From a virus: a DNA stretch of 40,757 nt. The DNA is taken from IMG/VR virus record IMGVR_UViG_3300001460_000060, positions 1 through 40,757 of that record, one strand, 5' to 3'. The translations under genes were made by a program, and so were the position numbers. Positions 1,751-30,269 of this stretch are shown here, piece by piece; position 1 is the first letter of the stretch; every line of letters begins with the position of its first letter. The notes under the pieces were generated by a model. It did no database searches and was not told the origin of the DNA. It worked only from the letters and a program-made list of their open reading frames with translations.

Positions 1751-2380
1751 ATGAATAAACAAATAATAATAGAAGCATTAAATAAGTTAGTCTATACTAA
1801 ACGAAAGTTTTTATCAAACGATGAAAAGTTTAGGAAATATTTTAAGGGGTTAAAATTAAACGACTATAAAAATAATCCATTCCCAAAAAATGAATCAAAT
1901 AAAACTAAAAAAGAAGTTGAGTATTTAAAAAAATTAAAACAAAACAAAGAATTTGTTACTACTTCAGATGATATTTTGGGAAGATTTAAAAGTTATTTTA
2001 AAGAAAATAATATTGACTACCCTGTTATGTTGGTAGAAGATTTACTAAATGGGTCTAAAAACTTTATTATGAAACTTAAATATTTTTATAATAGACCTAG
2101 ACCTGCTCAGATAGCAAAAAACCTTAATATTGATTTTGGTATAATAGATTTAAAATCAGCTAAAACACCAGCATACCCATCTGGTCATACAGCACAGTCT
2201 TATTTAATAGCTAATGTTCTAAGTGATTTATATCCAAAACATAAAGATAAATTAATTAAAATATCTGAAGAAATATCTAAAAGCAGAATGGTTGCAAAAG
2301 TACATTTTCCTACAGATATTAAATTTGGTAAAAAAATAGGTATCGATTTATTTAAACAATACAAAAAGAACGGTAACTAA
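1751..2380 (+). CDS. PAP2/vanadium-haloperoxidase-type phosphatase
   Basis: 209 residues. Seen: all three signature motifs of the PAP2/acid phosphatase superfamily: K-x6-R-P (K108/R115-P116, or K110/R117-P118), P143-S-G-H146, and S178-R179-x5-H185-x3-D189. Known family chemistry: phosphomonoester hydrolysis through a phosphohistidine intermediate (the H185 position), on substrates from lipids to nucleotides and polyphosphates. No transmembrane helices or signal peptide are visible, so this is a soluble member acting in the cytoplasm or virion, unlike membrane lipid phosphatases. First of two plus-strand genes in a minus-strand region; the next gene begins 1 nt after its stop, so they form an operon. 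The substrate cannot be deduced. Confidence 0.88.
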   Translation: MNKQIIIEALNKLVYTKRKFLSNDEKFRKYFKGLKLNDYKNNPFPKNESNKTKKEVEYLKKLKQNKEFVTTSDDILGRFKSYFKENNIDYPVMLVEDLLNGSKNFIMKLKYFYNRPRPAQIAKNLNIDFGIIDLKSAKTPAYPSGHTAQSYLIANVLSDLYPKHKDKLIKISEEISKSRMVAKVHFPTDIKFGKKIGIDLFKQYKKNGN

Positions 2381-15826: not shown

Positions 15827-18568
15827 TTAACCATTTAATTGACTTATTGGTGTTTCACCTGTACATGGTATTTCACCTTTAGCTCTTTGAAAATATAAAG
15901 ATTTCAAATAACTTTGAATTGGTTTTTTTATTATGTCTTTTTTACCTTCTCTAGTAAGTGAACATCCGTAACCTTGTTTACCTGTATATGGGTCGGTTAT
16001 AAATTCTGACGTAGTGTACACGCTTGGGCAAAAACAATCATCAGCTTCATTTACTACTCGTAGACTGTTAGTTTCGTCAACAAATACTATAAAATCTTTT
16101 GTTATTTGAGAAAGTCCACCTAGTGGAGTTGTGATATTTACAACCACGCTAGTAGTTGTGGGTATTTCTGATACCATCCAATTGCAAGCTATTTTGCAAC
16201 CGCAACCATTTATTGTATCAGACTGTCCTTTTCTTGTGTTGCAACAAATATAACCAGCGTTTTTTAATTGAAAATTTATAATTTCTTTTCCATTTGAATT
16301 AAAAGTTATTGATTTGTCATATTCTTCATAAAAAACTGATTTACCGTTAGAAATTTTGTCACAACATTTTCTGGATATAAACGGTGACTCTTTTGTTTGA
16401 TTTGTAAGATTACCATTTATATCATAAACTTTGTAAAACCAAATGTAATGTAAGTCCTTTATATCAAAATTATATGAACTTATCTTATCCAAACACCCTT
16501 TTGATGTACTAATAGAGTCGTCCTCGCATTTAGTTACATCTATAATTAAAGCTTCATCATTTTCTTCTACATCACACCCACAATCCGTTTCTTCTAATAT
16601 AGGACATGGGTCTGTTATTACATCGTTATCTAAAATAATTAAATCGCTTAAATCAAAACCATCTTCACTTTGAACATCTATGTACAAATTACCGTTATAT
16701 CTATTTATCACACCGCTATTATAATTTGTAAATACATTATTTTCTGTATCGCTAACGGTTGTAGATGTTATTGTAAATGGTATAAAATTTGGTATTATAT
16801 TTTCTAATTGGTTTATATATTCTTTACCACCATCATAAGGCCCTACGTGTGGGTTGTTACCTTCTAAGATATATTGTGTCGCACCAATTCCAGCTGTTTC
16901 TCTATACCATTTACCCCCCTTTTGAAAGTACATCGAAGCGGTGTCTCTAAAAAATTTAGGGAACCCTTCTGAATCTATATTGTATAAATCTAAGTCAGTG
17001 TCTAAGTCATTGTTTTCTAGAACAGTTAAAAATAAATCTACATCGATAGGTTCTTTAACTTTGTATATATATTCATTGAAGTTTATTAAACCATCTGGAG
17101 TTCCAATTAATTTAAAGAAAAATTCAATAGCTTTTCTTGTACCTTTTGATTTCCATATAAAAGATGAATTAAGTATTAATCTCCTCCATAGTTCTAGCTC
17201 TGCTTCACCTGCTGTTAACCCTCTGTTGTAACCTGGATACGTTTGAGAATTTAATTTTTCGTAGTTATTTATTAAATCTGTGTCTAATATAGAACTAGTT
17301 AATCCCCAGCCTAATACCCTAGCTAGATATTTTACTAACTGGTCTGGTGTATTATTTTTCTTATCATAAGATACTGAATTGGCGTATGAAATACCATCAA
17401 TGTGTTTTTTTATTTCATCAAATTCTCTACCGTAAATTCTCAGAGTTTTATTTATTTTTTGACTTGAGTCTTCGTCAACTGTTGTACTTGCAGTTGCTAT
17501 AGTATCAAAATCTGATATAGACTCAGCAACTAAGAACCTAACAATTAAATTGGTTTCTAATTCATCTTTTGCATCAGCAATTTCAATTAAATTAGTAACG
17601 TAATTAAGATATTCACCAGTATTAAAATCTATATTGTACCCATCTGATACTGGCCATGTAACAGTTTTTTGTGCGTTTATAATTCTACCTAATTCTGTTT
17701 GTTGTTTTATGTCATATGTAGAACTATATTTTGGTGTTGTTAAACGATTAAGTAAATTATTTTCAAAACCATTTAAAGAGTTAAAGAATTTTTCTACATT
17801 TACAGAATTTGGTTTAATGTGGTATTCTATTTTTTTACTACTATATTTTGTAAATGGGTCTCCATCTACTTTTAAAGTAATAAAATCATTTGTTTCACTT
17901 GTTGCTGCACTAAAACTTAATAATTTGTATTCTGTATTATCCAAAAATACTACATAATCTAAAAAATTTACAGTTAAATTTTTCGTATTGTGTTCAGCAC
18001 TAAAACTATCTATGGTAGAACCATTTTTTAAATAATTTATATTAAAATTATTTCTTATGAAATTTGTGGGTGCATCAAATGTAGATGAATTTGTTACATA
18101 ATCAAAACTATAATTTAAGACTGTGTCACCAACTGTTGATGTACTAGTATTAAACCTATTTGGTGATAAAAATAATGATGCTGGCCAATCGCTTATAATT
18201 TTTTCTAATGATACTCTAATAAATTCTTTTGTTGACCCAAAATAAGCAAAATTGGACAGATTAGCCGTATCTAAATTTAATTTTACAGTTAAATTATCAT
18301 TTATAATACTTTTAGCTTGTGATTCGGTTAGATTTAACGTTTCTAGTGAGAAAAATTGACTGTATTTCTTACTACTGTATAATCTAGTGATTCTACCTCT
18401 ATTGTTTATTGTGGTTACAAAGTTACCAAATGTTGAAATGGAGCTTATACCATCATCACCTTGTACTAATTGATTTCCAACTAAATCATCAGTGAAGTTT
18501 CTATATTCGATTCCATTATCAAAGAATACTCTTTGTGCATAACCAACAACTTTAACTCTATCGCTCAT
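15827..18568 (-). CDS. baseplate protein with P2 gpI-like region and cysteine-rich C-terminus
   Basis: 913 residues. Seen: a central stretch at about 420-510 (L-A-R-V-L-G-W-G-L, A-E-L-E-L-W-R-R-L-I-L-N, W-K-S-K-G-T-R-K-A-I-E-F-F-F) that looks like the core of P2 gpI-type baseplate proteins, where a polar turn 'hrxKGT' precedes a helix. The C-terminal third (about 650-880) has many cysteines, including C-G-C, K-C-C-D, I-C-C-N, C-G-C-K-I-A-C-N-W and C-F-C-P, which suggests disulphides or metal sites. Probable role: baseplate wedge component connecting the gp6-like ring to fibres (inference from position and motif). Four nt separate it from the upstream gene, so it belongs to the same operon. 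Confidence 0.6.
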   Translation of the reverse strand: MSDRVKVVGYAQRVFFDNGIEYRNFTDDLVGNQLVQGDDGISSISTFGNFVTTINNRGRITRLYSSKKYSQFFSLETLNLTESQAKSIINDNLTVKLNLDTANLSNFAYFGSTKEFIRVSLEKIISDWPASLFLSPNRFNTSTSTVGDTVLNYSFDYVTNSSTFDAPTNFIRNNFNINYLKNGSTIDSFSAEHNTKNLTVNFLDYVVFLDNTEYKLLSFSAATSETNDFITLKVDGDPFTKYSSKKIEYHIKPNSVNVEKFFNSLNGFENNLLNRLTTPKYSSTYDIKQQTELGRIINAQKTVTWPVSDGYNIDFNTGEYLNYVTNLIEIADAKDELETNLIVRFLVAESISDFDTIATASTTVDEDSSQKINKTLRIYGREFDEIKKHIDGISYANSVSYDKKNNTPDQLVKYLARVLGWGLTSSILDTDLINNYEKLNSQTYPGYNRGLTAGEAELELWRRLILNSSFIWKSKGTRKAIEFFFKLIGTPDGLINFNEYIYKVKEPIDVDLFLTVLENNDLDTDLDLYNIDSEGFPKFFRDTASMYFQKGGKWYRETAGIGATQYILEGNNPHVGPYDGGKEYINQLENIIPNFIPFTITSTTVSDTENNVFTNYNSGVINRYNGNLYIDVQSEDGFDLSDLIILDNDVITDPCPILEETDCGCDVEENDEALIIDVTKCEDDSISTSKGCLDKISSYNFDIKDLHYIWFYKVYDINGNLTNQTKESPFISRKCCDKISNGKSVFYEEYDKSITFNSNGKEIINFQLKNAGYICCNTRKGQSDTINGCGCKIACNWMVSEIPTTTSVVVNITTPLGGLSQITKDFIVFVDETNSLRVVNEADDCFCPSVYTTSEFITDPYTGKQGYGCSLTREGKKDIIKKPIQSYLKSLYFQRAKGEIPCTGETPISQLNG

Positions 18569-23016: not shown

Positions 23017-26000
23017 TATATTGATATTGGTTGTGTTATTTTTTCACAGAATGCACCAGTGTTTCCGTTTATACCTTTTATTCTACATCTTACATCTAAA
23101 CCAGTACTATTTGGTGGGTAAGAAATATATAGTACTGACTTACCTTGCGCTATTAAATTTAATATTGTAAATGAATATACACCAATTGATGGGTTATTTG
23201 TTATTGTTTGATAACTACCTCCAGTCTTAACTTGCCATATAAATTCGTAAGTGTTACCTGGTGCTGGGTTACCTACTGGTGTATCACCCCATCCATCAGT
23301 AGCGATTGCGTCAAGTTTAGTATTAGTTGATGATGTGGTTGTATTCACTAAATTAATTGATAAGTCATTATCTGGCTCCTCAATGTTTATGTTTTCAATT
23401 TTTTCACACCCAGTTCCCTTGTCTTTTATTTTTATTTGTTTAAATCCAATACCTAAATTTAGTATATTGTAACTACCGTTTGAATTGCTAACGGTTTGTA
23501 CTATATTAGTTCCGTTTGAATCTGTATAAGATATATCAACAGAGTTTTCTGATACTACGTTAGAAAATCTTATTTCACCTGTATCGTCACCTTTGCACCC
23601 TATGTTAAGTTTTGTAACTGTATAAGATATATCAATTGGTTCTGATATTGTGAAATTTTGTGTTACGCTATTTCCATTTCCTCCGCTATCAGTAACGGTA
23701 ACTGTATAATTTCCAGTATTTAAACTAGTTAATGCGTTAACGTTATCAGCTAATATATTATTTGACGAATCTTTCCATTCGATATCAAATGGTGCATTAC
23801 CATTTAATATTGTTAAGAAAGCGACACCATTTGAATCACCAAAACAAGATACATCTGAAGTTGATGCTGATATTTGTAAAGATGGTAAATCATTTATATC
23901 TATTTTTCTTTCACAAATAGTACCTAAACTATCTGTAACAGTAACAGTATATGTACTTGGACCTAATGATAAAAAAGTATTTGAGGTGTTATATGTATTT
24001 GAAACAGTACCTCCTGTCAAACCAGTGTTATCATCTACTAATGTTATACTGAAAGGTGCTGTACCATTGAAAATTGAAACTAATATTTCCCCATCATTTG
24101 ATATTGATGTTGTTAATGGTGTTGTTTGTAAAGAGCAATTTACAGCTATTGGACCTGGAACATAAAAAGACCTAGTAGATAACCTATTTAAACTGTCAAT
24201 TACTGTTACATTATATGTGCCAACAAATAAATTACTTATTGTTTGTGTGTCTTGCTGATAGTTTATAATATTATTACTATATTGATTAGGTCCTGTCCAA
24301 GTTACATCATATGGTGCTAAACCGTTTACGATTTGTATATCTATTTCTCCAGTAGGTGTAGGAGTGTTATCATCTTCCTGTGTTACTTGACCTAAAATCA
24401 CAAAATCATTTTCAATCTCTGGTTCGCATTCTGGGAAAAAGTTTTTTAATATTTTATCGTAACTTGTTTTACCTTTATTTAATCCGAAATAGAAATAAAA
24501 AGAACTACTCCTTTCTCCTAATCTATTTTGTGTTTTAAGGTCTCTAAAAACTTCATAGTATTCACCATTATCTTCACCAAAATCAGAACTAGTTATCTTA
24601 TCGAATTTAACGCCTTCAAAATCTGGTAATCCATTCAAATAAGCAAAAGCACCTCTAACAAATTCTGCATCAACATCATCATTATCTATTCTGTTGTTTA
24701 CTGGTGAACCATTTCCTCTTTTTTCATCTAACCCAGCACCTAACTCACAAAATCTTCTTATATTAACGCAGCTGTTTAGATTTGTAAAAATAAATGCAAC
24801 TGGAAAACATCCTATATCTGCGACTAAATATGGGTTGGCATTACTTAAAAAAGTGTCAAACCCAGTTTCAATTATATCGGATGAAAAGTCATTTGGGTCT
24901 TCTCGTTCTGGACTAAGAGATGGTATATTAAATGACGTATCAAGTAAGAAAGGATATATTTTTGGTGTACCTCTCCAGTTACAATCTACCATTGAACCTA
25001 AATTAATTATATCTGTCGCAAAAAACTTATTTCCGCTATGTGATTTTGGTGCATAATAAAAAATGTCATCAAACTTTTTTATTATACCTTCTAAAGTTTT
25101 AACAGTTAAACCACATTGACCTGCACTTGTGTCTTTGTCACATATATTCATTTTATCTTCTATTGGTGAGGATAAAGTACAAGTATCTCTTATGAATGTT
25201 GGTGGTTTTATTGGTCCAAATTGGTTGTTAGTATCATCTATATCACAAAATCTATTTCTGTCATTAGAAATATCAAATTGAAAAGAATATAGTGTTCCAT
25301 TTACCCAATCATTATAAAAATCAAATTGAATAAGATTTAAAGACTCTACTAATAAACGTGCTTGACAATCTAGCCATCCAGCGGATGCATCAATATCATT
25401 TGTTGGGGCTGTATTGTTCCCAACATAGTAAAAACTATAATTTATCGGTGTGTTATTATTATTTGTACAAGCATCAGCAGAAAGTGGGTCTACACCACTT
25501 ACAGAATATTGTGTTGCTTGTAAAGCTACAGGTAATCTTGCAAGTAAACCTATTACATATTTTTCCCCATCGCAATCAAGATATATATATGGTACATAAG
25601 GTATTAAATCACAATTACATGCCGCTGAACATGACCCAAGTTGTCTACATCTTTCTGGTTGTAAACATATATCACAAGGGTCAGCACCAAAAACACTTAT
25701 AATATCTCCAATTATAACTGTAATTATGCATATGGCTCTTAATACCTCATTTATTACTGATAAAACAAAATTTACTACATTTATAATTATATCGTTTATT
25801 AGTCCTACTATTAAAACAAATATATTTAAAAAGACACATATTATAGCAAATAATGGGTTTATATTTATACCTATTTTATTAAACGGAAATTGAAGGGCTG
25901 AACCGCTATCTACATCTTTTATACCAGTGAACTCTTCGACCAAATCATTTGCGTTAGTTTGTTGTATTCTAGGTATATAATTTTTTACAGAATATATTTC

Positions 26001-27200: not shown

Positions 27201-27488
27201 TTATTGTGAAGAATTTTTTTCTGTTATTATTGGGTCTTTACTTATCATTTTTTTAACCCCTTCCATCATTAATGATGTGTCGATACTTGAATTAAGAAAT
27301 ATCGCTTTAAATAATAAATAAATTGAAAAAGGTATAACAATTATTGTTAATATAACGCTAGTAATCATAAATAATAATGATTTGGTTAAAATAACTAAAA
27401 AACTCTTTGCTAAAGAATTGTCATTTTCATTTAATTTTTCGTTTTGATTACTCGTTGTTTTTTTATTTTTACATTTACTACATCCCAT
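27201..27488 (-). CDS. small membrane protein with N-terminal CxxC
   Basis: 95 residues. Seen: M-G-C3-S-K-C6-K-N-K-K at the N-terminus, a polar linker, then one long hydrophobic stretch at about 28-66 (one long or two short membrane helices, with a proline near residue 53), and a polar tail. It lies 3 nt upstream of the giant SprB-repeat gene, which itself has a membrane-like segment. No known family is recognised. Possible roles: membrane insertion or penetration at infection, or a holin-like function; neither is shown. First gene after the gp6 terminator. Confidence 0.6.
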   Translation of the reverse strand: MGCSKCKNKKTTSNQNEKLNENDNSLAKSFLVILTKSLLFMITSVILTIIVIPFSIYLLFKAIFLNSSIDTSLMMEGVKKMISKDPIITEKNSSQ

Positions 27489-27520: not shown

Positions 27521-27556
27521 AAAAAAAATTAAAAAGTGAAGTTTTATTTACTTCAC
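27521..27556 (-). terminator. intrinsic terminator after the gp6-like gene
   Basis: Minus-strand hairpin with a perfect 7-bp stem GTGAAGT/ACTTCAC (27556-27550 with 27542-27536) and a 7-nt loop, followed by TTTTTAATTTTTTTT. The TAA stop codon of the gp6-like gene straddles the end of the first stem arm and the loop, so the terminator begins inside the coding sequence. Confidence 0.85.
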
Positions 27557-29365
27557 CCTAACAATAACATCTTTTTCTGGAAATTTAATTTCAAACATAC
27601 CTACAGGGTCACCAAATAATGTATATTCACCTAATAAATCTATTTGTCTAGTTTCGTCACTAACATATGGTTGAGGTATTTCGTTAGCTGAATATCTACC
27701 TTCCCCTACTTTATTATATACCCTTAAATCTACAATATTTAATACACCTGGAACGTTATTTATTTGTTCTACTAATTGAGCTATATAAATATTATCGCCC
27801 ATACCCCAGTTTTCTATATTAAAATAATTGATAACATTTGTTATGGTTTCAGATATTATTTCAGATTGTGAAAATTGTTTATCAACAAATAAATCTATTT
27901 CAAACCCTAAATTATATACATTTCCATTTGTAACTTCAATGTAATCATTTAACATTCTATAATCTGATAAGTATGTTGATATATTATCATTAAGCGTACT
28001 TGTTGATTTGGTACTTAATTTACTATTTTCGTCTAGCGTAAGTGTGTAAACAACTACTTTATTTTGTTGTTCGATTACATTATTTCTAAATGGAACTCCA
28101 AATTCACCAGGCATTAATGCTATTCTAGTTTTATAATCTTCTATTGTTACACATCTTTCTTGTGATGAAAAATTATATCTAACTAAGTTTCTAATTTCTT
28201 CGACTGATGGTTCATTTTTTCCACCTAAAGCTGGTAGTGGATTTGTAACAGTAACTGAATTTATAACCTGTTGATTGGTTGTAGCATTTGGACCATTAAC
28301 GTTTAGTATTATATTATTTATATTTTTAAGTGTGTTTGGTCCTATATTAGTGTCGGCTCCACCACCAACTCTATAAGATATAAATAGAGTTTTATTAGGA
28401 CTAAGTGTTAAACCTAGTGAAGTATTATTTATAAAATCTCCTATTCTATTAACAAGCGATTTATTAACATCAAAATCACATAGTGAACTTATATCTTCGG
28501 TTCCACCACCAAAAATAAGTTTACAAAATCCATTGTCGGTGAATTCTTTTATAAATCTTTGGTTAACTCTTTTGAATTTACCAGGTTTTACGGTAGCATT
28601 ATCACTTAATTTAGTGTTGTCTGAGATGAAAACTATATCGTCTACTAGTGCATTTACTTCATACCATCTATCATCTTCGTTAAAAAAATCAGCATTTGTT
28701 GGGTTGGTTGTAAAATCGGTACCTTCTAAAGCTACAACAGAATTTATCGATAATACGTTGTCGTCTGGGAGTATAACTTCTAAAAATGGTTTAACATCTG
28801 AATTGGTTACAATTCTTGATTGTATTTTGGTTACACCATTTATTACTAATTCTCTCTTTGTAAGTGTATAGTTGATAATATTATTATTATTATCAAGATT
28901 TGGGATTACTAACCTATTTGGTACACCCCCTACTGTAAATGGTGATGAAAAATCTATATCTTCACTAGTTTCAAATACTTTTCCAGCTCCACTTATTTGT
29001 GCGCCTCTTACAATAATTGGAGCATAGGATACATCAAATGTATCCCCTAAAACTGGTACTACAACTGAAAAATCTGCAATTGTAACTGATGCTCTTTTGC
29101 CTGGTATTTTCAAACCAAATGTTCTAGCCATTGAGAGAACAGAACTTTTTTCTTGCGCAAAATCTATTTGCGTTTCTTGAAACATCCTGTCAGTATGGAA
29201 TGATAACATATCACCTACGGCAGCGTTTAGTTCCAATAACATCATACCTACAGAAGCATCATTAAAATCGTTAAAAATTGCTGGGTAATACTGTTTTACA
29301 AAACTTATTAATTCTTGCCTTACATCTGCAAAATTCCTACTAAAATAATTGATTTTTTTTGACAT
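27548..29365 (-). CDS. baseplate wedge protein, T4 gp6 / baseplate J-like
   Basis: 605 residues. Seen: the N-terminal signature of gp6-type baseplate wedge proteins (R-x3-L-I-S-F-V-K-Q-Y-Y-P near residue 16, N-D-F-N-D-A-S-V-G-M-M-L-L-E-L-N-A-A-V-G-D-M-L near 32-54, then A-R-T-F-G) and a C-terminal J-like half (P-S-V-E-E-I-R-N-L-V-R-Y-N-F-S-S-Q-E-R-C-V-T-x2-D-Y). Known role: forms the inner baseplate ring with gp25 and gp53/gp7 and controls sheath contraction. gp25-like protein is encoded directly upstream, the classic pairing. A strong terminator closes the unit. The family is clear despite distant sequence. Confidence 0.88.
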   Translation of the reverse strand: MSKKINYFSRNFADVRQELISFVKQYYPAIFNDFNDASVGMMLLELNAAVGDMLSFHTDRMFQETQIDFAQEKSSVLSMARTFGLKIPGKRASVTIADFSVVVPVLGDTFDVSYAPIIVRGAQISGAGKVFETSEDIDFSSPFTVGGVPNRLVIPNLDNNNNIINYTLTKRELVINGVTKIQSRIVTNSDVKPFLEVILPDDNVLSINSVVALEGTDFTTNPTNADFFNEDDRWYEVNALVDDIVFISDNTKLSDNATVKPGKFKRVNQRFIKEFTDNGFCKLIFGGGTEDISSLCDFDVNKSLVNRIGDFINNTSLGLTLSPNKTLFISYRVGGGADTNIGPNTLKNINNIILNVNGPNATTNQQVINSVTVTNPLPALGGKNEPSVEEIRNLVRYNFSSQERCVTIEDYKTRIALMPGEFGVPFRNNVIEQQNKVVVYTLTLDENSKLSTKSTSTLNDNISTYLSDYRMLNDYIEVTNGNVYNLGFEIDLFVDKQFSQSEIISETITNVINYFNIENWGMGDNIYIAQLVEQINNVPGVLNIVDLRVYNKVGEGRYSANEIPQPYVSDETRQIDLLGEYTLFGDPVGMFEIKFPEKDVIVRVK

Positions 29366-29450: not shown

Positions 29451-29840
29451 CTATATTTCAATAATAACGAAATCAGTGTCAGAAAAAACACCATCTGTTA
29501 CAGTATAATCTATTTTAACTACTGCTCTATACTCACTGTTTTCACTAATTTGAACATCTACTTCATTAACCTGTAGATTTGGCATGTATCTTTTGATTAC
29601 ATCATTTAAATGAATTTTTATATCGCTATGTGTTGCTGAATCATTTTGTTCAAAAATGTATCTTAGTAAATCAGTTCCAAAATCTGGTAAGTATAATCTT
29701 TCACCTTTTCTAGTTAAAACTAAATGCATCAAATCAGCTTTTATTGCCTGTTTGTCTGAAGCGTTTAATTTAACGAAATCACCTTTATCGCTTTGCCTAA
29801 AAGGAAACGCTATATTAATAAATGTACCTGGGTCTGCCAT
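29451..29840 (-). CDS. baseplate protein, gp25/gpW lysozyme-like family
   Basis: 129 residues, the usual length for the GPW/gp25 family. Seen: I-N-I-A-F-P-F near residue 8, L-M-H-L-V-L-T-R-K-G-E-R-L-Y-L-P-D-F-G-T-D-L-L-R-Y-I-F at about 37-63 (the hallmark R-x-G-E-R ... P-x-F-G), and a beta-strand end. Role: inner baseplate component that, with gp6, initiates sheath polymerisation. It lies upstream of the gp6-like gene and has its own promoter-like motif 16 nt before the ATG. Confidence 0.92.
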   Translation of the reverse strand: MADPGTFINIAFPFRQSDKGDFVKLNASDKQAIKADLMHLVLTRKGERLYLPDFGTDLLRYIFEQNDSATHSDIKIHLNDVIKRYMPNLQVNEVDVQISENSEYRAVVKIDYTVTDGVFSDTDFVIIEI

Positions 29841-29867: not shown

Positions 29868-30269
29868 TTATTGAAATAAATTTTCCTTTCTTTTTCTTAC
29901 ATACACATCTTTAGGTATCCTTATTATTGTGATAAAATCTTCTTCCATTGTGATTCCGTTTATGATAATAACATTTTTTGTGTTTGGTAAACTTATATAT
30001 GTTTCTAAAACATCTTTATTTATGTCGATAGTATATCTATTTTGTTTAATAATATATTCGACAACAGATTCTTTTTCTGTTTTTAACTTAACACCTAAAA
30101 TTATTTGGCAATTAGATTTATCCCATAGTTCAATCTTTAGATTACCTGGTAGGTCACATATAATTTCGTTATATTGGTCTACATAAAAATTTTTGATAAA
30201 TTTCTTATACGTTTGCCCGTAGGATAAATTTACTAGTAGTAGTAATATTAATGTTTTTATAACTTTCAT
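29868..30269 (-). CDS. small exported protein with Bacteroidota-type signal peptide
   Basis: 133 residues. Seen: a classic signal peptide, M-K-V-I-K then a 10-residue hydrophobic core, then N-L-S-Y-G before Q-T, matching the Bacteroidota habit of cleavage before Gln. The mature part is short beta-strand repeats (I-C-D-L-P-G-N-L-K-I-E-L-W; D-F-I-T-I-I-R-I-P-K-D-V-Y-V), faintly like beta-helical head domains of Bacteroidota adhesins (DUF2807/DUF4097 type; weak). It would be released to the periplasm or cell surface of the infected host. It lies between the gp25 gene and NrdA with its own promoter motif, and a strong terminator lies upstream. Possible superinfection exclusion or envelope modification (inference). 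Confidence 0.6.
   Translation of the reverse strand: MKVIKTLILLLLVNLSYGQTYKKFIKNFYVDQYNEIICDLPGNLKIELWDKSNCQIILGVKLKTEKESVVEYIIKQNRYTIDINKDVLETYISLPNTKNVIIINGITMEEDFITIIRIPKDVYVRKRKENLFQ

Follow-up and report, generated by a model that had tools for sequence, protein, structure and literature searches.

Hydrophobic segments in phage tail proteins are already known, and the route by which contractile phages pass through membranes after the sheath has fired is still being worked out. In T4, post-contraction membrane passage has been proposed to involve the tape measure protein gp29, which carries a hydrophobic stretch (PMC11948020, in excerpt). In phi29, the L-loops of gp9 form a bundle of hydrophobic helices in the knob and exit as a helix barrel, of which the outer surface is hydrophobic and the height is approximately that of a bilayer (as given in parts of PMC6542822). 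Cis13 belongs to a thylakoid-anchored contractile injection system, where it is attached to the baseplate and penetrates the membrane with its helices (excerpts of PMC8894136). In Streptomyces, CisA is a membrane protein that is reported to be required for contraction and not to be part of the particle (PMC12237407). T4 gp7, lastly, is a large protein of the baseplate wedge region with an annotated predicted membrane domain. No description was found in open-licence PMC papers of a separate, conserved membrane partner that is encoded in a baseplate operon and lost together with a hydrophobic helix.

The studied DNA comprises the 40,757 bases of one virus record, all of which is called the window. 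Its relevant features are the following.

29451..29840, minus strand: gp25-like baseplate wedge protein (PF04965, 1.5e-15; phrog_261, 4.3e-19)
27548..29365, minus strand: gp6-like baseplate wedge protein (phrog_219, 1.8e-14; phrog_10646, 3.7e-14)
27201..27488, minus strand: small membrane protein of 95 amino acids with the N-terminus MGCSKCK (CxxC), an open reading frame and the proposed partner of the helix
23016..27197, minus strand: giant protein of 1393 amino acids, an open reading frame
25689..25856, minus strand: hydrophobic helix of the giant, residues 448-503, with near-invariant Cys454 and Asn468 (AlphaFold2 and conservation)
25611..25676, minus strand: cysteine cluster of the giant, residues 508-529 (positions read from the sequence)
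25329..25877, minus strand: removable module of the giant, approximately residues 441-623, with the helix, a variable tip and the first conserved cysteine region (comparison with loci L164 and L343)

The gp25-like and gp6-like genes thus lie upstream, followed by the gene of the 95-residue membrane protein and then by the giant. By eye, a gp6-like reading frame is also found upstream of the giant in L164, L343 and further loci inspected. Elsewhere in the window, a 133-residue reading frame with a signal-peptide-like start (MKVIKTLILLLLVNLSYGQ) is located at 29868-30269 on the minus strand, flanked by the gp25-like gene and by what looks, by eye, like a ribonucleotide reductase gene. A 913-residue protein (15827-18568, minus strand) contains a stretch that by eye resembles the gp7/tail protein I region, but its comparison with T4 gp7 by blastp yielded no significant match. 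A 209-residue reading frame that runs counter to the structural genes (1751-2380, plus strand) carries an RPRP...PSGH motif that, read by eye, we take to be PAP2-phosphatase-like.

The giant consists of a beta-rich N-terminal part, a membrane-like insertion, a cysteine-containing region and C-terminal Ig/SprB-like repeats. Pfam matches to CarboxypepD_reg (2.6e-6) and SprB (2.8e-5) both stay under the curated cut-offs, and a Hoc-like PHROG (7.2e-9) is confined to the C-terminal repeats. These repeats are also the only part matched, at 27% identity, by positions 516142-516834 of LR756502, a 642-kb uncultured phage. The AlphaFold2 model of residues 1-940, built from 65 sequences, has a mean pLDDT of 80.2 and a pTM of 0.79. 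Fold searches returned weak CnaB/carboxypeptidase-regulatory and transthyretin-like matches over residues 48-250 and 253-735, with Z scores of approximately 5-7 that are under the safe level of the tool. In BFVD, a single structural homologue stands out, the uncharacterized protein A0A8S5LA66 of Myoviridae sp. ctPuP5, for which no function is recorded (Foldseek E 1.6e-77, TM-score 0.73 by query length, 31% identity); the next match has an E-value of 2.0e-4. Three queries with the giant core found no relative in 50,697 phage records, no PHROG was found for the tested parts of six giants, and no PDB chain was found by sequence. Judged by sequence, the phage collection, PHROG and PDB therefore gave no cultured relative. 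Among GTDB contigs, five loci (L082-L086) are present in metagenome-assembled genomes or single-cell assemblies, the bins of which are assigned to Mycoplasmatota, Bacteroidales, Paludibacteraceae (two) and Prochlorococcus; some of these bins probably represent co-sorted or mis-binned phage and not the host. That the hosts belong to Bacteroidota is a guess prompted by large phages described from lakes and gut (PMC9723584, PMC12363816).

To a large extent, the family was sampled from IMG/VR. The first scan gave 82 relatives, a profile scan at least 588 and a scan for a sister clade at least 598; 80 were kept from each, and the latter two sets may overlap. The pooled set contains 204 distinct giants from 322 loci. 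A match to the tail sheath family PF04984 at E<=0.001 was obtained in 12 of 13 window-clade records, 4 of them over the cut-off (the window's 40.8-kb record is not among them), and in six of nine other records, two of them over the cut-off; the three records lacking it are those of L343 (19 kb), L361 (64 kb) and L362 (134 kb). The gp23 family PF07068 was matched in 9 of 13 large window-clade records. The sheath and gp23 matches in large records indicate that these are contractile, T4-like phages.

The initial annotation had drawn attention to some 60 strongly hydrophobic residues in the middle of the giant. This was borne out, as 41 of the 56 residues at positions 448-503 of 1393 are A, V, I, L, M, F, W or C, and four are charged. 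The highest Kyte–Doolittle (KD) mean over 19 residues is 3.11, a value that none of 2000 shuffles of the protein reaches; the best shuffle comes to 3.05. Since this single-window peak lies barely beyond chance, the case rests on the length of the stretch and on its conservation. In a KD profile of 14 window proteins, only the giant and its 95-residue neighbour exceed 1.6, in agreement with the earlier remark that a membrane-like element is odd in a baseplate region. Similarly, an additive insertion scale is negative for only these two of 13 window proteins. At the helix site, approximately 95% of 189 window-clade giants (L164 included) score below 0 on this scale, with a median of -3.57, as do approximately 98% of 193 small proteins. 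AlphaFold2 predicts one continuous helix of 56 residues (448-503), with a pLDDT of 83-90 for the block of residues 441-500. The helix pair that had been suggested within the giant is therefore not retained; a hairpin is predicted only for one member of the sister clade. Recurring polar positions (447, 451, 454, 458, 461, 465, 468, 473, 476, 480 and 483) fall on one stripe of the helix, which is narrow and made up of Asn, Cys, Lys and Gly.

The site is conserved throughout the family. In the pooled distinct giants, aligned positions are occupied by Pro438 in 201 of 201, Cys454 in 199 of 200 and Asn468 in 198 of 200. In all 75 distinct homologues of the first set, the hydrophobicity maximum of the protein falls within this segment. 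Seven rows of that set show a further hydrophobic stretch elsewhere; one of these is artefactual, namely the window row, to which the small protein was appended. In the second set, with 49 distinct new proteins, the segment is the hydrophobicity maximum in 47 of 47 proteins with the site present, the helix-less L164 and the fragment L167 being set aside. The hydrophobic block ranges from 22 to 95 residues (median 43.5, n=180), a spread that fits a spacer or a bundle as well as a bilayer. Behind the helix, the region is hypervariable and can be cysteine-rich, basic-aromatic or nearly absent. The cysteine pattern read from the window at the outset is present as C508-x2-C511-x5-C517-x5-C523-x3-C527-x-C529, the last ones (nucleotides 25611-25659) lying just outside a limit set earlier at 25660. 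As a conserved core, the cluster was rejected for the window's clade: CxxCx1-6C follows the helix in just 20 of 185 homologues, so the spacing is not kept, and conserved cysteines are located elsewhere, e.g., at positions 454, 542, 611, 651, 797 and 924.

The adjacent gene encodes a small membrane protein with a CxxC of its own, as had been noted from the start: it begins with MGCSKCK and has one hydrophobic stretch (KD 2.62) with a proline near its middle. The protein resembles an ordinary single-span membrane protein, in most cases with an acidic tail. Among 53 aligned small proteins, two cysteines are invariant, and P49 is present in 90% or more. Leaving aside four distinct giants without room upstream (L061, L079, L301 and L320), 200 of the 204 loci remain, and a Cys-headed membrane reading frame is found upstream of the giant in 199 of them, the exception being L164. 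A script found the gene in 193 loci; in L168, L240, L285, L321, L327 and L333 it was recovered by reading the frames or by a wider search, and in L285 the reading frames of both the giant and the small protein look interrupted. Per set, the initial counts are 74 of 75 in the first (the miss is L080) and 44 of 47 in the second (misses L157, L160 and L175), these four loci having then been inspected by reading. The heads of the 193 small proteins are CxC (166), CxxC (20), CC (4) or a single cysteine (3), two of the latter being misread start codons. The small gene is kept in L240, L321, L327 and L333 even with another reading frame between it and the giant. By eye, these inserts are endonuclease-like (HNH-like or Vsr-like) in L240, L321 and L333, and that of L327 is a different-looking frame; in L157 and L188, endonuclease-like frames, again by eye, lie upstream of the small gene. 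The pattern is what would be expected if the surroundings of the small gene were a target of homing endonucleases. A matching of lengths between the hydrophobic stretches of the two proteins was set aside, as their correlation is weak (Spearman 0.20). L157 and L184, which are on the same contig, have the sole giant of 200 without Cys454, with a methionine in its place, next to a small protein with a single N-terminal cysteine. From this one sequence case, of which relatives were not found, a coupling between Cys454 and the CxC of the small protein is possible.

The helix and the small gene can both be judged in 197 distinct loci, with L086, L167 and L220 left out as fragments that end before the helix. 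Both are present in 196 of these loci and neither in one, L164. There, a counterpart of window residues approximately 441-623 is missing and the giant directly follows the gp6-like gene, with no small gene in between. L343, on a different contig and 76% identical, also has no small gene and retains a short hydrophobic remnant (KD 1.88) without C454 or N468. A profile of the small protein gave no match in L164 or L343; it detects the gene in the controls L157, L188 and L285, and in four of four large window-clade control records at E<=1e-9. As the contigs of L164 and L343 measure 5.7 and 19.5 kb, a copy of the small gene might be located in another part of the genome. A FastTree tree was built from 227 N-terminal sequences, with L362/L363 chosen as the root. 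In this tree, L164 and L343 group together (1.0) and are nested in a subclade of 16 members that also holds the window (support 0.991), which makes the loss secondary. A single event probably accounts for the joint absence in both loci. The association between helix and small gene has a Fisher value of 0.005 (calculated with 199 and 1), for which the units are sequences and not evolutionary events. In L362 and L363, deep relatives with 30-31% identity over the first 375 residues, no comparable helix was seen, nor an interval that could accommodate the small gene, in a region whose equivalence is uncertain. Of the interpretation given in the initial annotation, the membrane-like element stands and the helix pair within the giant falls; a link to the small neighbour stands as an evolutionary one, given that the small gene is adjacent in 199 of 200 loci and that helix and gene are both absent in L164.

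The sister clade presents a different arrangement. In 51 of 51 distinct proteins a hydrophobic domain is present at the helix site, and in the same 51 loci the small gene was not seen directly upstream of the giant. The script flagged 17 of the 51 loci, of which 16 show a 194-residue internal piece of the gp6-like reading frame; two other flagged frames (L386 and L429) have no CxC head. With the small-protein profile, the best E-values over seven sister-clade records are 0.011, 0.015 and 0.886, and the first two, at 13 bits, cover no more than positions 1-28 of 116 and lie well away from the giant. The helix is therefore not always dependent on an adjacent small gene. Summed over blocks, the hydrophobic domain is longer on average in the sister clade than in the window's clade, with a median of 60 versus 47 residues (ranges 28-105, n=46, and 19-132, n=186). 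The domain is followed immediately by CxxCxC in each of the 47 complete sequences. Of the 50 anchored sequences, the other three are cut off by the end of the contig, and one further sequence has no anchor motif. The cysteine cluster at residues 508-529 of the window's giant is possibly a variant of this CxxCxC, judging by its position. For L369 (165 residues, 44 sequences), two helices of 62 and 33 residues are predicted to form a hairpin, with a mean pLDDT of 75.3 and a pTM of 0.50, and its fold search gave a best E of 0.94. Following this one predicted member, the sister-clade domain may combine in one chain what is split over two genes in the window's clade. Two hydrophobic blocks occur in just 9 of 46 members, so this reading rests on a minority; an independent replacement, or a helix for which no partner is needed, is possible as well. 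In the giants of L405 and L443, a second hydrophobic block of 49-67 residues is present at approximately residues 1006-1077, far downstream of the first.

Altogether, the module is removable, and the joint absence of its helix and the small gene suggests a role of the pair in contacting or piercing a bacterial membrane. The reading favoured here, tentatively and with a confidence that stops somewhat short of probable, is that the membrane activity of this baseplate-region protein resides in the helix and that the helix and the small protein would insert as a pair into a bacterial membrane during infection. For the hydrophobic faces of such a helix, the possible contacts are lipid, further copies of the helix or the small protein, and phi29 gp9 goes through two of these contacts one after the other. 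In an otherwise beta-rich protein, the very long helix with its narrow polar stripe would be an insertion, partnered, presumably by physical contact, by the Cys-headed small membrane protein encoded just upstream. Within the particle, the helices of several baseplate copies, if these are indeed present in multiple copies, would pack on each other or on the small protein. Upon contact with the host, they may enter a membrane of the envelope and anchor the baseplate or line an opening. In part of the sister clade, a second helix within the giant itself may take the place of a separate partner. The full version of this scheme is unlikely to be right in every element: a split device in which the helices of several baseplate copies, each with a small protein, form a polar-lined channel or anchor with hydrophobic walls in the host envelope on attachment, with the partner encoded as a separate gene in one clade and carried in the same chain in part of the sister clade, and with the device discarded in a sublineage. 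The L-loops of phi29 gp9 are similar in that they are a hydrophobic insertion in a tail protein, as in the giant, although phi29 has a short, non-contractile tail. We know of no small membrane partner gene for gp9. Neither gp9 nor gp7 is among the fold matches listed for the giant, and gp9 is not among its listed PHROG matches, an absence from these lists that excludes nothing.

Somewhat less credible, though a serious contender, is a soluble structural bundle, in which the helix would form an oligomeric core within the virion and the small protein a covering subunit, with no membrane involved. T4 gp7 offers a precedent. It carries an annotated membrane domain, reaches a KD of 2.07 in the profile in which T4 gp11 reaches 1.66, scores -2.56 on the additive insertion scale on which the giant scores -4.27, and has solved structures, presumably of baseplates; hydrophobicity is thus no proof of a membrane role. 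The two proteins differ in that the hydrophobic segment of gp7 lies near the C-terminus (886-904). Identity with gp7 found no support, as an hhalign comparison of the giant's profile with a single gp7 sequence gave a Probab of 0.08 (on a scale of 0-100) and an E-value of 0.65 over 20 columns. A continuous helix of 56 residues also exceeds a single bilayer crossing, the hydrophobic length varies widely, and the joint loss would equally fit two subunits of one bundle. However, with 41 of 56 residues hydrophobic and only a narrow polar stripe, nearly all sides of the helix would need cover. The hydrophobicity periodicity peaks at 99 degrees, as for a straight alpha helix (0 of 5000 permutations match), versus 102.9 for a canonical left-handed coiled coil, a comparison of limited resolution. 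Moreover, L164 shows that the module can be removed, and some sister-clade domains read by eye as multi-pass-like, neither of which is favourable to a structural core.

A distinctly improbable alternative is that both proteins reside in the host's inner membrane and tether the baseplate to it while this is being assembled, with the small protein acting as a membrane chaperone that is absent from virions. Its ordinary single-span appearance and, in most cases, acidic tail would suit this role, and contractile systems that need the membrane of their own cell do exist, as Cis13 (PMC8894136) and CisA (PMC12237407) illustrate. CisA resembles the small protein in being a membrane protein partner of a contractile system, and Cis13 differs from the giant in that it anchors to the membrane of the producing cell and does so with a C-terminal triple helix, versus the mid-protein helix at 448-503 of 1393. 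A platform of this kind leaves a difficulty, however, as the released virion still has to hide the helix. That the small protein is a holin or another lysis protein standing in a structural operon by chance, with the helix unrelated, is very hard to credit: it is small, has a hydrophobic span and ends in a charged C-terminus, as a review describes for holins in general (PMC6116005), but its best holin match in the window, phrog_14607, is at chance level (E 0.42), four homologues have no holin family at E<=0.1, no lysin was noticed by eye among the translations beside it, and its gene precedes the giant in 199 of 200 loci and is missing together with the helix in L164 and L343.

The joint loss and the existence of two clades make the link between the helix and the small protein directly testable. 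If the favoured reading of a membrane-inserting pair is true, a membrane module in the baseplate region of a common uncultured group would add a further component to the means by which contractile phages get through bacterial membranes.
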